From Methanosarcina barkeri MS (GTDB taxonomy: Archaea; Halobacteriota; Methanosarcinia; Methanosarcinales; Methanosarcinaceae), in NCBI RefSeq assembly GCF_000970025.1, contig NZ_CP009528.1:1289168-1353167 (forward strand): a stretch of 64,000 bases of DNA, given 5' to 3'. The position numbers and the translations under genes were made by a program. Position 1 is the stretch's first letter. Each line of letters begins with the position of its first letter. The notes below the pieces were generated by a model. It was not told the origin of the DNA. It ran no database searches and saw only the letters and a program-made list of their open reading frames with translations. This document shows, in pieces, positions 2,603-12,330 of the stretch.

Positions 2603-2920
2603 ATTTTTTGTGGCCTGTAAAAAATGCAAAGCTGTAACTGTAAAAACCTTAAAGTTGTAGCTTATAAAAAACGTTTGTGACCTCAAAACTAAGTCTGGAG
2701 CTTACAAAGAAATATATTATTATACAGTGTAATGCTTACTGACTGCATTTTCATCCTTGCTTCAGCAATTGTAATAAGCCTTGATGATTCGTTTTCCCTG
2801 AAAAAATTGTTTTTCAGGAACAAAACAGTCCTTGGCAAAAAGACTTTTGTCATAAAAAAACCAATTATAAAGGCTCCGAATAAATAAAAATCTATATTTG
2901 AGCTCTATTTTTTCCTTTTT

Positions 2921-2990
2921 CTTTTCTTTTCTTTTCTTTTCTTTTCTTTTCTTTTCTTTTCTTTTCTTTTCTTTTCTTTTCTTTTCTTTT
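2921..2990. repeat. Perfect CTTTT pentanucleotide tract, 14 copies
   Basis: Fourteen uninterrupted CTTTT units, with imperfect C/T-rich continuation on both sides to about 3005. Tracts of this kind are prone to slippage; it lies between nrdJ and ileS and outside any gene. Confidence 0.95.
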
Positions 2991-3033
2991 CTTTCTCTTT
3001 CTCTTAAGTGAACCTGCTTCCGTCTCTTTAACT

Positions 3034-3310
3034 GCAATCCTTGACCGCAATCGTTACGATGTTGATCTCGTCGTTGCTGAGGTTTTCGGTCAAGCCTTTT
3101 TTTAAAAGGGTTGCGGGCAAGTAGTTTTTTAAAAGGGTTGCGGGCAAGTAGTTTTTTAAAAGGGTTGTGAGCAAGCAGTTTTTTAAAAGGGTTGTGAGCA
3201 AGCAGTTTTTTTGAAAGGGCTGTGATCACGTCATGGAGGTTGAGGATAAGGATTTCAAATTCAAGCGTTGATGGGGTTTTCGCTCAAGTTTTTCAAATGG
3301 GTTGTGGTAT
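3034..3310 (+). repeat. Dispersed palindromic-type repeat, copy 1, with internal tandem expansion
   Basis: This matches three other intergenic copies (37295-37460, 39968-40110, 50912-51028). The common core is a TTTTCG(C/G)TCAAGCC segment followed by poly-T, then AAAAGG(C/G)TTG and a GGGCAAG tail. Here the tail unit of about 27 bp (TTTTTTAAAAGGGTTG plus a GCAAG tail) is repeated about four times between 3101 and 3215, and a further partial copy of the left part follows at 3232-3310. The perfect hairpin of the other copies is degraded here. Confidence 0.7.
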
Positions 3311-6776: not shown

Positions 6777-6847
6777 ACTCTTAAAAAGGGTTGAAAATTA
6801 AAGAAGTTTTGAACTCAAACTTTAAAACGGAAGGGAAACTGATTCGT

Positions 6848-7480
6848 ATGGATTTTGCTACCTGGGAACCGATTTACGAACGAATCCTTGAGGATTTCGG
6901 ATTTGACCGAACAGGTGATGAAAAGGCAGCTTTTTTCCTTTCCTACATGTTGACAGAAGAAAACACGATCAGCTTATCTGAGCTCAAAGCAATAATTTCC
7001 GGAAATCCTGTCCTTGTCTGCGGAAACGCTCCAGGGCTCAGGAATGACCTTTCGGAAATCAATTTTTCTGCTTTTACGGTAATTGCAGCCGACGGAGCCG
7101 CTGCTGTACTAATGGATATGGGCATTGTGCCTGAAGTCATCTGTACCGACCTTGATGGCAATTCAGAAGCTGATATCGAAAAAGAGATACTTGCCTGTGA
7201 AAAGGGCTCGATAGTCCTTATTCACGCGCATGGGGACAATATTGATAAGCTTGAAAAATATGTTCCCCGCTTTAAGCGATTTATTGCAACTACCCAGGCA
7301 GGACCTTTTAACGAAGTCTATAATTTTGGAGGCTTCAGTGATGGAGACAGATGCTTTTTTGTAGCCAGGGAATTTGGAGCTCAAAAAATTAGGCTAGCAG
7401 GTTTTGATTTTGAAGATAACGATGTAAACCCGATTAAGAAAAAGAAATTGAAATGGGCAAAGAAATTAATGGGGACCTGA
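6848..7480 (+). CDS. mptE: 6-hydroxymethyl-7,8-dihydropterin diphosphokinase, archaeal type
   Basis: Pyrophosphorylates 6-hydroxymethyl-dihydropterin, the last step before joining the pterin to the methanopterin arm. The protein of about 210 residues has the DUF115/MptE pattern: PVLVCGNAPGLRNDL (nucleotide loop), VIAADGAAAVLMDMGIVPEVICTDLDGN (acidic metal-binding segment), VLIHAHGDN, TTQAGPFNEVYNFGGFSDGDRCFFVA, and a basic tail. The ATG at 6848 follows GGAAGG and starts at the conserved MDFATWEPIYERIL. A longer TTG-initiated frame from 6791 is less likely. Closely downstream of ileS. A decayed second copy lies at 9874-10375. Confidence 0.85.
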   Translation: MDFATWEPIYERILEDFGFDRTGDEKAAFFLSYMLTEENTISLSELKAIISGNPVLVCGNAPGLRNDLSEINFSAFTVIAADGAAAVLMDMGIVPEVICTDLDGNSEADIEKEILACEKGSIVLIHAHGDNIDKLEKYVPRFKRFIATTQAGPFNEVYNFGGFSDGDRCFFVAREFGAQKIRLAGFDFEDNDVNPIKKKKLKWAKKLMGT

Positions 7481-8175
7481 GATCTTTAAAAAGTAATTCA
7501 CCTAACTGAAAACGCTAAGAATCCAATTGATAATAACACAAATATAATAAATCAGCAAGTTCTCTTATTTTTATTCACAATCTGAATCGAAAAACTTATC
7601 CTATTAAATAGTCGCCCTTTATATTGATATTTTGCTTAAAATAAAAAGACTAAAGTTATAAAGTTTAATAATAAAAAGAGTTGTACTACTTTTTCAACAA
7701 AATTATGTTATTTTAAGGCTCTATATTGAATTTAGTCAGGAAATAGGGATTATAGAGATTATTAAGACAATATTTTTTGGCTGAATATTCAATTACAGAT
7801 TTTTATTCCTGATTTATTGAGAGTTTTTATAGAACTAGATATTGTAGAGTAAATTCAAAAGTAAGCTTGTTTTATTGATAGAGGTTTTCTCTATTTTTAT
7901 ATAGGTTATTTATATTCAGAAACAGTTATTCTAGGTCTTTTATATAATTTATAATTCTATGTTTAATTGTACTTTCATGGGAGAACATGGGAGGACTGTT
8001 TCTTTCTAAACGGAAATGAGTACTCTAATAATTTCTAAAAAGTTGCCATGAAAGTATGATTAGGGGGTGGGTGAATAAGTTTGATTAGAGAGTGTAATTC
8101 CCTAGTCTAAAAAGCTCACCTTTACAGAGATCTGAAAGTATAGAATAACATAGCAAAATCTTGGAGGTAAATATA
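7481..8175 (+). promoter_or_regulatory. Intergenic region with promoter block and long leader of small ORF A
   Basis: The block 7926-7973 carries TTATTCTA, then TTTATATAA exactly 13 bases later (7939-7947), then TACT 31 bases after the TATA start. The same elements at the same spacing precede small ORFs B and C. The predicted leader is about 210 nt. It includes an 11-bp inverted repeat, TACTTTCATGG (7970-7980) with CCATGAAAGTA (8046-8056), and ends in GGAGGT (8163-8168), 7 bases from the ATG. 7481-7900 is AT-rich with no gene visible. Confidence 0.7.
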
Positions 8176-8283
8176 ATGTGTGGATGGTTTGGTGGCTGCG
8201 GCTGGGGCGGCGGCTGGGGCTGGCGTCGCTGCTGGCGCCGCTGTGGCGGCTGGTACGGCTGGGGCGGCGGTTGTGGCTGTTAA
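8176..8283 (+). CDS. Small Gly/Trp/Cys/Arg-rich protein A (35 aa)
   Basis: Not a recognised family. The ATG sits 7 bases after a strong GGAGGT. The 35-residue product is built only from a few residue types: about 15 Gly, 7 Trp, 6 Cys, several Arg, and single Phe and Tyr. It starts MCGWFGGCGWGGG and ends WGGGCGC. The G+C-rich coding stretch stands out sharply from AT-rich surroundings. The 3' sequence after the TAA (AGAGCAATCG, AGGCCAAT) is shared with ORF B at 9302, and the promoter is shared with B and C. Repetition of all three parts argues that it is a real gene. Possible roles (metal or haem binding, envelope peptide, processed peptide) cannot be distinguished. Confidence 0.65.
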   Translation: MCGWFGGCGWGGGWGWRRCWRRCGGWYGWGGGCGC

Positions 8284-8346
8284 GAGCAATCGACAGGCCA
8301 ATCGTTGAGCTCGTAAAATGTTAATTATGGATGAATAAAAAAGCTG

Positions 8347-8393
8347 TCAATTCAAGATAGAAGGATAATTTCTGATTAATTGTCTTGAATTGA
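8347..8393 (+). terminator. Inverted repeat downstream of small ORF A
   Basis: TCAATTCAAGA (8347-8357) pairs perfectly with TCTTGAATTGA (8383-8393) around a 25-nt loop, 64 bases after the stop of ORF A. It may end or stabilise the short transcript; function is inferred. Confidence 0.4.
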
Positions 8394-9097
8394 TGGCTAT
8401 GTATTTTATTACCTGCGGTAGCAACTGTAAGCTACATATGTTTGAAAGTGAAGTTTCTCTATTTAGACGGATCTGGATGTTGTGTATTAACAGATCTTCA
8501 AATTTAGTCATTAGTCAAATGAAAATTCGTCACTGTTTACTTAGTAATAAAAATAATAAGGTATTAAAGTTTGAAAACCAAATAAGTAACACTATTTTCT
8601 GTCGCTAAATACACATCTTATAAGCCATCAAATCGCTTATAATTAGTAAAATATGGCGTTTTTGTACTTTTAAGGCTCTATTTTTGTCTTAATTTTGATT
8701 TCAAACTAAGGTTACTGATTTTATTGAGCTATTCTAAAAATTAATATTTCTAAATTAAATATAAAACTAAACTCATTTTATAGAGCATAATTTCCCAGCT
8801 TTTTCAATGACTATTTAGTGTTAAGAATATATTATTCTATTCCATTTATATAATTTACAACTATATTATTAGTTGTACTCTCTGGCAATTAAAGTTGAAT
8901 CTGATTCTTATTAGGGGTTGGTAGATTACAACTTGAGTGTCAGGAGTAATAATAGAGTTTGTGAGTCGATATAAAATTAGGTTGGAGAAAGATATACTCG
9001 AATCTTATATTATATCTTCTCAAATATATAATGAACTGTGTAAATTAACGCGAAAAACATACAACAACAAAATATAGTAAATATGGAGGTAAATACA
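8394..9097 (+). promoter_or_regulatory. Intergenic region with promoter block and leader of small ORF B
   Basis: Block 8832-8880: TTATTCTA, TATA box TTTATATAA 13 bases on (8845-8853), TACTC 31 bases after the TATA start, then GCAATTAA at 8885. The distance from TATA to the start codon is 253 bases. Near 8986-9022 a GATATA/TATATC inverted repeat with A/G-rich flanks could form a hairpin. The ribosome binding site GGAGGT is at 9085-9090. The stretch 8394-8830 is AT-rich; a 72-codon frame from about 8390 lacks a ribosome binding site and is not accepted. Confidence 0.7.
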
Positions 9098-9301
9098 ATG
9101 GGAGGATTTCCATTCTTTAAGAAGTTCGGCGGCTGCGGTTGCGGCGGCGGCTGGGGCGGCTACGGTGGCTGCGGTTGCGGCGGTTTTGGCGGCTTTGGCG
9201 GCTGGGGCGGCGGTTGTGGCTGCAATGATAGGAAAGTTTGCTGTGTAACAGCAGTCCGTGCATGCTGCTCCAAAGGCGGCGGCTGGTGGGATGACTGTTA
9301 A
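9098..9301 (+). CDS. Small Gly/Cys-rich protein B (67 aa)
   Basis: Unrecognised family, paralogous in style and context to ORF A. The ATG at 9098 lies 7 bases after GGAGGT, as for A; an upstream ATG at 9083 overlaps that box and is rejected. The product begins MGGFPFFKKFGGCGCGGG, continues as a Gly/Trp/Tyr/Phe/Cys repeat to about residue 42, and ends in a different cysteine-rich part: CNDRKVCCVTAVRACC, then SKGGGWWDDC. It has 12 cysteines in 67 residues. The composition suggests a secreted or metal-binding structural peptide, or a precursor to be modified, but this is inference. The tail after the stop matches that of ORF A. Confidence 0.7.
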   Translation: MGGFPFFKKFGGCGCGGGWGGYGGCGCGGFGGFGGWGGGCGCNDRKVCCVTAVRACCSKGGGWWDDC

Positions 9302-9873
9302 GAGCAATCGCTAGGCCAATAGCTGAATGCTAATTTATCAACCACGGATTAAGTAATTAGGTATACTATAAAACCGATAGTGGACTCATTTGTACAATCC
9401 TCCGCCGGGATACAGAAGCAGGAGAACCTTGATGGCGTCAGAACCTGAAATCTATTGAAAGGTCTCTCCTGCAATTAAACAGTCACTTCTCAGAAAGGAC
9501 TAACGAATAAGCTCAGTCTCATTTTATTCATCCGACTGACATACTTTAATTGAGGTTCTGCCATTTTCTTGAAAATTCCTTATTTTTTAATAATGAGCTG
9601 ATCCCAAAACTCAAAATTGCTTCTCTGAATCCTGTATTCCGAATAATCAATCAAGTTTCTGATCATGAAAACAATCCTGAAAATTCTTGATGATTAAGAA
9701 CGAAATGACTTTTGGGATAGGCTCAATATTAGATAATAACGTCTATTTTACAAAAAACTTGGTTAACGTAGTTTATATTCAATTCAATGAAATATTGGGT
9801 TTTATTTTTATTCTTCTGTTGTATTCTCAATATCAACCTTACTTGAGTGTTATTTACTGGCGTTTTATCTTTT
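9302..9873. other. Intergenic region, no gene recognised
   Basis: The first 65 bases resemble the 3' flank of small ORF A. About 9388-9500 is less AT-rich and may be a decayed coding fragment, but no family could be read from any frame. A 68-codon frame at 9687-9893 has no ribosome binding site and runs into the decayed mptE copy, so it is not accepted. Confidence 0.6.
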
Positions 9874-10375
9874 ATCTGAACTTAAAGCAATAATTTCCGA
9901 AAACCTGCCCTTGTCTGCGGAAACGCTCCAGAGCTCAGGAATGATTATTCGAAAGTCAATTTTTGAATTTTGCAGGAATTGCAGTGATGGAGCCGCTGCT
10001 GTACTCATAGCTATGGTATTGTGCTGAGGTCATTTGTACCGACCTTGATGGCAATTCTGAAGCTAACATCGAAAAATAGATACTTGCCTGTAAGCATGGT
10101 TCTACAGTCTGACCCTGCCGTTAGGATATATTTATAAGCTCGAAAAATACGTATCCCGCTTTAAGCACTTTATCGTGACTACCTAAATAAAACCTTTAGG
10201 TAAGGTCTACAATTTTGGAGTTTTCCTTCAGGGCGACCGACTCGTTTTTATTGAAAAGGAGTTCCCGGCAAAAACTGTTAAACTTACTAAATTTGAGTTT
10301 TAGGATTCGAGAGCGAACCTGCTTAAGAAAAAGAAGTCGAAGTGAACGAGATAAGAAATTTAAATGTTGGAACTT
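9874..10375 (+). pseudogene. Decayed second copy of mptE
   Basis: From TTATCTGAACTTAAAGC at about 9874 the DNA follows the intact mptE (6965-7475) with many substitutions, small deletions and stops. Recognisable stretches include CTTGTCTGCGGAAACGCTCC, GGAGCCGCTGCTGTACT, GTACCGACCTTGATGGCAAT and the basic tail AAGAAAAAGAAG. The N-terminal third is absent and no frame stays open. It sits upstream of small ORF C as intact mptE sits upstream of small ORF A, which suggests that an mptE-plus-small-ORF unit was duplicated and the mptE part then decayed. Confidence 0.85.
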
Positions 10376-11043
10376 TAAAGCAAAAAGTTCTTCTTAAGGA
10401 TGGTTAAGGTGAAGAAAGTAAATAAATTTCCCAATATGCGTCTTTTGAATAAATCCGGCTTTTATATTTTTAGAAATAAAATGCTCATTTAAATTAAAAA
10501 TACAGAGTATTATAATTTGGATTTAAAGTGATTTTTCTATCTAATTTAGTAGATTCATTCATTTTATGAATTATTTTTACATTTGATCACATAAATATAC
10601 TTATCTTTTCATAATATATTTTATTTTTATCGTATATGGAAAAAAAGAACATTTAATACCTTTTTTATTGATATTTTAAGACAAATCCACAATTTAAATT
10701 GAATGAATAAGTCTGCCCATGTTTTCCCGTGAAATTTGCCCAGATTTTCCAGGACTATTTAATTATAAGTATAATTTATTCTATATGCTTTATATAAATT
10801 AAAACTATATGTTTAATATACTCACTAGCAATTAATATTTAGATATGTCAATCTTAAAATTAAGATAGGCTCCCAAAGATATCATGAAATTTAATTGTTA
10901 GGAGTATCGTGTAATAAAATAGTTTCGGAAAAATAGTTGTTTATGAATTCGAAAAAAACGATTATTTCTCAAAGATTAACAAAAATAGTTAACAATTTAA
11001 GAAAAATAAATTTATCTACAAAAAAAGAGTGGAGGGAATGAAC
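10376..11043 (+). promoter_or_regulatory. Intergenic region with promoter block and leader of small ORF C
   Basis: Block 10776-10823: TTATTCTA, TTTATATAA 13 bases later (10789-10797), TACTC 30 bases after the TATA start, then GCAATTAA at 10828. The start codon lies 255 bases after the TATA start. The leader is A-rich and ends in GGAGGG (11031-11036). The upstream part, 10376-10770, is AT-rich with no gene seen. Confidence 0.65.
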
Positions 11044-11121
11044 ATGGTCTTCAGCTATTACTATTCAAGGGTTTGCTGGTACTATGAGAAGGTTTGCTTC
11101 TTCATGAAGGTCTGTTACTGA
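11044..11121 (+). CDS. Small Tyr/Cys-rich peptide C (25 aa)
   Basis: Unrecognised. The ATG at 11044 is 7 bases after GGAGGG, the same spacing as small ORFs A and B, and it lies behind the same promoter block and leader length. The 25-residue product is aromatic and cysteine-rich, with Val-Cys recurring three times: RVCWYYEKVCFFMKVCY. It is not Gly-rich, so homology to A and B rests on the upstream region, not on the peptide. It could be a short functional peptide or a leader peptide. An ATG at 11038 in the same frame is possible but too close to the ribosome binding site. Confidence 0.45.
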   Translation: MVFSYYYSRVCWYYEKVCFFMKVCY

Positions 11122-11544
11122 TTCAGCAAAGAAGTAACCTACAAAAATTATTCAGTTTGTTTGAAGTAACAGAAATAGTATTATAGTCATCTGTTCAAAG
11201 CGTGAAGTGTAAATTTTCAATTTATTGCTCCCTGGACTGGTGACTCTCTTTTATTTTCGTATCAATGGGTAATCATTTCTTTAAACTTTGCTTTCAACGA
11301 AATGCGATTTTTGCCTGAGACACAAAACAAGCATCATTATTTTCTTTTCTGAACATGGGGAAATCTCTGCCATCTTAACATAATCGTTATTAGTAGAATT
11401 ATTCTTTTGTTAGGTATACACAAATAAGGCCGTAAGATAATGTAAAATCAATCATCTTGGAAATTCAAGTTTGATATTAACTATACTTAGCTAGACGAAG
11501 TTCTTGAGCAAACTATTTATTTAATGCAAGGAAAAAGGTAACCT
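11122..11544. other. Intergenic region, no gene recognised
   Basis: AT-rich DNA between small ORF C and the fluoride-type locus. No open frame with a ribosome binding site and no clear structure were seen. Confidence 0.6.
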
Positions 11545-11605
11545 ATTAGCGATGAATTCCGCCTAAACTTTATAGTCTAAAACCGTTTATGCTGATAACT
11601 TTTAC
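11545..11605 (+). ncRNA. Degenerate fluoride (crcB-type) riboswitch
   Basis: The order of conserved elements matches the fluoride riboswitch: GCGATG, TTCCGCC, TAAAC, AAACCG, then GCTGAT and a final TAC. It lies directly upstream of a CrcB fragment and an inorganic pyrophosphatase, both expected in a fluoride regulon. The hairpin stems and the long-range pairing that should close the fold are weak or broken (the TGAA/TTTA pairing is only marginal), so the element may have decayed together with the truncated crcB. The call is by eye; a covariance-model search would decide. Confidence 0.5.
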
Positions 11606-11831
11606 ATCAACTATTGAGGTTTTACTGATATACTATTATGTGTATACCATTTTATCGAGAGGTATAGGTGGCTTCATAGGTGCTACCTTGAGATATGCTT
11701 TAGGTAGATGGATTCAAAATAGCTTCGTCAATTTTCCAGTAGGCACATTAATCATAACATTAACCATAAACACAATAGGAAGTTTCTTTTTAGGGAAGTA
11801 CTTGAAAGCAAGAAATAGTTGGAAGTGTTGA
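11589..11831 (+). pseudogene. crcB: Truncated CrcB/Fluc fluoride channel
   Basis: The family exports fluoride through a small four-helix dimeric channel of about 120 residues. Here only the first half is recognisable: GIGGFIGATLRYALGRWIQ and FPVGTL...INTIGSFFLG (the GGxxGAxxRY and NxxGSFxxG motifs). The frame then ends at KARNSWKC, with the last two helices missing. The extra residues ITLTI and the unusual N-terminus suggest further damage. Its stop lies next to the ppa start (TGATATG), so translation into ppa may be coupled. Confidence 0.65.
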
Positions 11832-11832
11832 T

Positions 11833-12330
11833 ATGACTGAAAGACAGGTCGAAAGCGTAATTGTTGAAATTCCAAAAGGGAGCCGGAACAAATTCGAATA
11901 TGATAAGGAAAAGAGACTGATAAAATTCGACAGAATGCTTTCTTCTTCAATGGTATATCCCTCGGATTATGGTTTTTTCCCAGACACGCTATCCCTTGAT
12001 GGTGACCCTTTAGATGCTATGGTTTTAACGTGGGAACCCACATTTCCGGGTTGTGTAATCGATGTCTATCTTGTAGCGTTATTTGACATGGAAGATTATA
12101 AAGGAAGAGATCAAAAAATCCTATGCGTTCCAAAGAATGATCCTATGTGGAATTATATTGAGTCAGTCGATCAGGTCCCGCCTCATTTATTTAAGGAAAT
12201 TACTCATTTCTTCCAAACTTATAAGAACTTAGATAAAAAACAAGTGAAAGTTATCGGTTGGAAAAGCCTCGAAACAGCAATCACTGTACTTCAGGAAGCT
12301 AAAGATCGATATGCTGCACAGAAAAAATAA
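11833..12330 (+). CDS. ppa: Inorganic pyrophosphatase, family I
   Basis: Hydrolyses the pyrophosphate released by biosynthesis to two phosphates in the cytoplasm. The 165-residue protein has the complete soluble PPase signature: EIPKGSRNKFEYD (Lys and Glu of the active site), YPSDYGFFPDTLSLDGDPLDAMVL (with the DGDPLD metal-binding acids), D(M)EDYKGRDQKILCVP and the later DQVPPHLFKEITHFF. Family I enzymes are strongly inhibited by fluoride, which fits placement behind a crcB fragment and a fluoride riboswitch-like leader. The ATG overlaps the end of the crcB remnant by adjacency. Confidence 0.95.
   Translation: MTERQVESVIVEIPKGSRNKFEYDKEKRLIKFDRMLSSSMVYPSDYGFFPDTLSLDGDPLDAMVLTWEPTFPGCVIDVYLVALFDMEDYKGRDQKILCVPKNDPMWNYIESVDQVPPHLFKEITHFFQTYKNLDKKQVKVIGWKSLETAITVLQEAKDRYAAQKK

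Follow-up and report, generated by a model that had tools for sequence, protein, structure and literature searches.

Comparative analyses of a 64,000-nucleotide stretch of Methanosarcina barkeri MS DNA (the window) gave strong support to three short open reading frames, micro-ORFs A, B and C, being real and translated protein-coding micro-genes, and likewise to the co-regulation of the micro-protein set to which they belong. The best reading of their sequence context is that each constitutes its own short transcription unit. We tentatively place A, B and C in a Methanosarcina regulon of co-regulated, aromatic-rich micro-proteins that would act in bulk at the membrane or envelope, a reading to which we give somewhat less than an even chance.

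All three micro-ORFs lie on the forward (+) strand. Micro-ORF A (8176-8283) encodes 35 aa and belongs to class I, micro-ORF B (9098-9301) encodes 67 aa and belongs to class II, and micro-ORF C (11044-11121) encodes 25 aa of the MxFSxxYSxV family. These sizes and start positions were confirmed on the sequence, as was the hexamer GGAGG(T/G), which at all three is followed by 7 bases and an ATG; a second in-frame ATG of C, at 11038, lies only 1 base past the hexamer. The TATA box TTTATATAA is present at 7939, 8845 and 10789, that is 237, 253 and 255 nt 5' of the ATG of A, B and C, respectively, and the three promoters form a single 59-nt repeat family. A and B also share a 24-nt repeat at the SD and start (88%), and their 3' flanks are alike, as predicted, over a 63-nt repeat (71%). 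The original prediction had described A and B as dominated by Gly, Cys and Trp and C as rich in Tyr and Cys. This held for the Gly/Trp/Cys-rich A, while B was found to be Gly/Cys/aromatic-rich, with as much emphasis on Gly, Cys and Phe as on Trp, and C is rich in Phe as well as in Tyr and Cys. The G+C content of the coding sequences (A 71%, B 61%, C 40%) stood above that of the AT-rich flanks (26-28%), as had been noted; that of the whole window is 39%.

Codon comparisons indicated that the reading frames are under purifying selection. Among codons with a single difference, 286 changes were synonymous and 88 non-synonymous in class I, and 274 and 145, respectively, in class II, where 19-21% synonymous changes would be expected without selection; the counts were made on protein-guided alignments, by which the synonymous calls are somewhat inflated. 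The synonymous excess was also seen in close pairs that align with at most a few gaps (6/1 and 14/7). C alone gave 7 synonymous and 9 non-synonymous changes against an expectation of 14% synonymous, in a small sample. GGC made up 59% of the glycine codons of the micro-ORFs, compared with 24% for the window genes, and GGG was nearly absent. The SD and start were retained in every cassette used. Stops and frameshifts, sought as a refutation of the original prediction, were found neither in the orthologues of A and B nor in the closest relatives of C; some more distant C-type loci had diverged or carried no recognisable micro-ORF.

The original prediction called for a search of Methanosarcina genomes for short ORFs behind the same promoter block, and this search revealed a genus-wide, multi-copy recurrence. 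DNA searches with A and B gave matches in 25 of the 31 Methanosarcina genomes and those with C in 28 of the 31, usually several in each genome. Among the retrieved loci GGAGG was followed by a short ORF of this type in 67 instances, most of them with a TATA box 220-300 nt upstream, and a further class II paralogue of 65 aa was found in the M. barkeri MS genome itself (G000:C2:1684833, L074). R1, a sequence model of the promoter and leader, matched 30 of the 31 genomes; outside the genus but within the order it matched only two genomes, both of one sister genus, and there it lay upstream of a large exported protein. A protein-profile search outside Methanosarcina returned nothing for class II. 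A micro-ORF followed the promoter match in 77 of 117 cases but none of 4000 start points drawn at random from the remaining window, and the pairing of promoter and micro-ORF is therefore not due to chance.

Alignment of the cassettes revealed a common order, namely a promoter block of about 60 bp, a leader of about 200 nt, GGAGG, the micro-ORF and often a matching 3' terminator hairpin. All of these elements were found on the + strand in the window. The promoter blocks, identified by profile match, occupy 7904-7965 in A (TTATTCTA and TTTATATAA at 7939; R1 match E 7e-20), 8796-8870 in B (TTTATATAA at 8845; E 4e-23) and 10740-10815 in C (TTTATATAA at 10789; E 8e-19). The consensus of the aligned promoters 5' of and including the TATA box is TTTTC-A-GACTATTTAATA-TAAGAA----TTATTCTA------TTTATATAA. 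Terminator-like hairpins with U-rich tails follow A (8342-8411, conserved with other cassettes) and C (11185-11258), and this terminator type (ATAGYCATC-TTCAAG/CTTGAATTGATGRCTAT), again with its U-rich tail, was also found in many further cassettes.

The leaders, at 7966-8175 (A), 8872-9097 (B) and 10816-11043 (C), open near the expected TSS with a predicted basal stem, UACU--CUGGCAAUU/AAUUGCC--GAGUA. In A the basal stem pairs 7966-7980 with 8046-8060 and is followed by a second hairpin at about 8063-8121; in B a basal stem and a second hairpin were likewise predicted, and in C a basal stem. The folds of B and C were better than those of shuffled sequences (z -3.4 and -3.6, respectively), while that of A was not (z -0.8). 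Across the 39 leaders of classes II and III, the basal stem was paired in 95% of its cells and 8 of 12 pairs showed two-sided changes, a level of pairing reached by none of 500 shuffles, and slid controls gave 25-56%. An equivalent stem was supported, with fewer changes, in 14 class I leaders, A's class. Pseudoknot pairing of the P1 loop (UCUCCAA) with a downstream UUGGGGG was rejected because the 71% of cells paired equals that of the shuffles.

Since conservation is higher in the leader than in the proteins, and the leader stem covaries, we asked whether a conserved, structured small RNA that also contains a micro-ORF could be the main product; sRNAs with translated sORFs are reported for M. 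mazei (PMC11456600). The strong selection on the ORFs and their codon bias argue against such a dual-function RNA, as do the SD and start kept throughout the cassettes used and the lack of any match between the leader and the Rfam covariance models at E<=1, and we consider it quite improbable.

Lower-scoring matches led to a second genus-wide locus (G000:C2 about 4177000-4179500; L172, G000:C2:4177000-4180500), strongly conserved across Methanosarcina, which contains three more classes. Class D peptides are hydrophobic and of 24-31 aa, class E peptides (25-28 aa) occur in tandem in up to seven copies, and class F peptides (32-41 aa) in many cases end in a C-terminal GFGGFGRF; Cys is scarce or missing in classes D and F. 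C and class E very probably form one family, because C scored 11.2 bits against a class E profile built without it, where the best of 200 shuffles of its own sequence reached 6.8, and because a joint profile also finds C. Tandem arrays of the 25-aa aromatic peptides of this family occur at other places in the genus and also in M. barkeri MS. In at least five genomes, M. barkeri MS included, the same promoter precedes an exported, Tyr/Gly-rich protein of about 110 aa (L167, G000:C2 ~713 kb) with G[YF]xxG[YF] repeats, which is conserved in several species. It also precedes an unrelated exported protein of about 500 aa, whose family is about 80% identical across Methanosarcina (L180:1155-2648, L111:2627-4126) and had no match in Pfam, NCBIfam or PDB; its gene in M. 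barkeri MS is interrupted by a TGA. This protein was rejected as a general member of the regulon, since the promoter was found with it in only a few genomes and was absent 5' of most orthologues. The presence of the block before this unrelated protein nevertheless weighs against the regulon reading, as the block may be a general condition-responsive promoter.

Bacterial type I toxins such as Ldr, Ibs and Hok are tiny peptides encoded in multiple copies behind a structured mRNA leader, and multi-copy retention is usual for such loci. The cassettes resemble them in peptide size, multiple copies and tandem arrays, intergenic position and structured leader, and class I, rich in Trp and Arg, together with the hydrophobic class D would suit membrane-active toxin-like or antimicrobial peptides of 20-70 aa restrained by the leader or by an antisense RNA. 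However, no conserved antisense promoter was found in the cassettes: minus-strand TATA-like boxes were not conserved, and in a rough test only 1 of 14 class I cassettes had any. Moreover, GGAGG sits in a mostly unpaired stretch of the predicted folds of the A, B and C leaders, the usual transmembrane helix is missing from the Gly-rich class II, the codon bias suggests abundant rather than suppressed synthesis, and we know of no counterpart of the Gly/Cys-rich classes among these toxins. A toxin-like function is in our judgement unlikely, with a small but appreciable chance of being correct.

Analysis of the micro-proteins revealed that their composition is conserved and that sequence, residue positions and Cys number drift. 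Class I proteins contain 2-7 Cys and keep 6-9 Trp, and class II proteins contain 5-14 Cys; no stretch of class II was conserved enough to serve as a query against viral contigs. The average share of Cys is 13-14%, and CGC motifs are numerous in class II. This abundance would fit a metal, haem or thiol buffer in which Cys-rich proteins bind metals or sulfur species in the manner of metallothioneins. The variation in Cys number disfavours one fixed metal or haem site, though, and with neither number nor spacing of Cys conserved the proteins differ from metallothioneins; the very high aromatic content and the co-regulation of the Cys-poor classes D and F also weigh against it, leaving a rather low probability for this function. 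RiPP precursors, to which short peptides with Gly/Cys-rich cores in several variants would correspond, appear very improbable, as no modification or export genes were found adjoining A-C within the window and the alignments show no division into leader and core.

Neither a signal peptide nor a recognisable catalytic site was found in the micro-protein products. AlphaFold predicted B to be disordered (mean pLDDT 39, no usable fold), and class II is best read as low-complexity and mostly disordered. A class F peptide of the same promoter family was predicted to be helical from residue 2 to 25 and to end in a flexible tail (pLDDT 70), and the Wimley-White interface sums were negative for all peptides tested. 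From composition and this one helix prediction, an action at the membrane or envelope appears probable; the absence of a transmembrane segment from the Gly-rich class II speaks against it.

For the regulon of bulk-acting micro-proteins favoured here, we propose that a single transcription factor would read the block upstream of the TATA box and switch on the whole set together, with presumably high expression, and that the leader would stabilise the mRNA or gate its translation. The products would probably act in bulk as material, because they lack a signal peptide and a catalytic site and keep their composition more than their sequence. The exported Tyr/Gly-rich protein that shares their promoter speaks for this reading. 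Through Trp, Phe and Tyr they may partition to the interface of the inner membrane or envelope, where they could assemble by Gly-aromatic contacts into structures lockable by disulfides under oxidising conditions; since signal peptides are absent, any role at the surface would need a separate export route. A more specific version, in which one dedicated regulon makes a protein material (a membrane or envelope matrix or a condensate, possibly redox-setting or electron-conducting) from a structural peptide class undescribed in archaea, is speculative and held at low probability. High-glycine-tyrosine keratin-associated proteins and loricrin are short, eukaryotic structural proteins rich in Gly, aromatic residues and Cys and cross-linked by disulfides; the likeness to the micro-proteins is one of analogy, with no homology claimed.

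The expectation of a small-protein family under strong common control was thus borne out by genus-wide recurrence, shared promoter, covarying leader and purifying selection. The family is also apparently undescribed, as had been supposed: sequence searches of Pfam, NCBIfam and PDB found no relative of the micro-proteins, Rfam none of the leader, and the literature search on a Gly/Cys/Trp protein family in archaea found nothing relevant. A Ribo-seq catalogue of M. mazei lists 314 unannotated sORFs, and according to its main text (PMC11456600) the small proteins include unannotated, intergenic, SD-led ones of <=70 aa, some genus-restricted, traits that the A-C cassettes share. That main text describes neither a Gly/Cys/Trp family nor a shared promoter/leader cassette; individual members may be catalogued in its supplementary lists. 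MtrI, a stand-alone Methanosarcina small protein of 68 aa with several Cys, resembles B in these respects, but is folded and helical with an N-terminal zinc ribbon (PMC12774963), while B is low-complexity and multi-copy and is predicted to be disordered.

The cassettes would amount to dozens of overlooked genes under one switch in a genus that produces much biogenic methane. Thanks to the conservation of promoter and leader, the regulon can readily be located and tested, and the composition of its products is extreme. Knowing what these products do would account for a good share of the small proteins of Methanosarcina that are still uncharted, and may bring to light a new archaeal material with a stress, envelope or redox role.

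A-C lie between a conserved gene for a 229-aa protein (6791-7480) and an inorganic-pyrophosphatase-like gene at 11833. The description of the intervening DNA as otherwise without genes was correct except for a partial gene copy and a high-copy repeat. The former (about 9872-10360) is a degenerate, partial duplicate of the upstream 229-aa gene, matching its positions 6974-7360 with 78% identity along some 380 bp, which suggests that the A-C region grew through segmental duplication. The latter (about 9591-9731), 3' of B, is an element of about 130-140 bp with about 40 genome copies and inverted ends GATCCCAAAA...TTTTGGGAT, and looks like a MITE-type repeat. Just 5' of the pyrophosphatase-like gene an 80-aa ORF (11589-11831) is present which, by eye, resembles the N-terminal part of a CrcB-type fluoride channel and is apparently truncated. 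Elsewhere in the window, positions 2762-3229 consist of low-complexity tandem repeats with the translations KKRKEKKRKEKK and LLTTLLKNYLPATLLKN.
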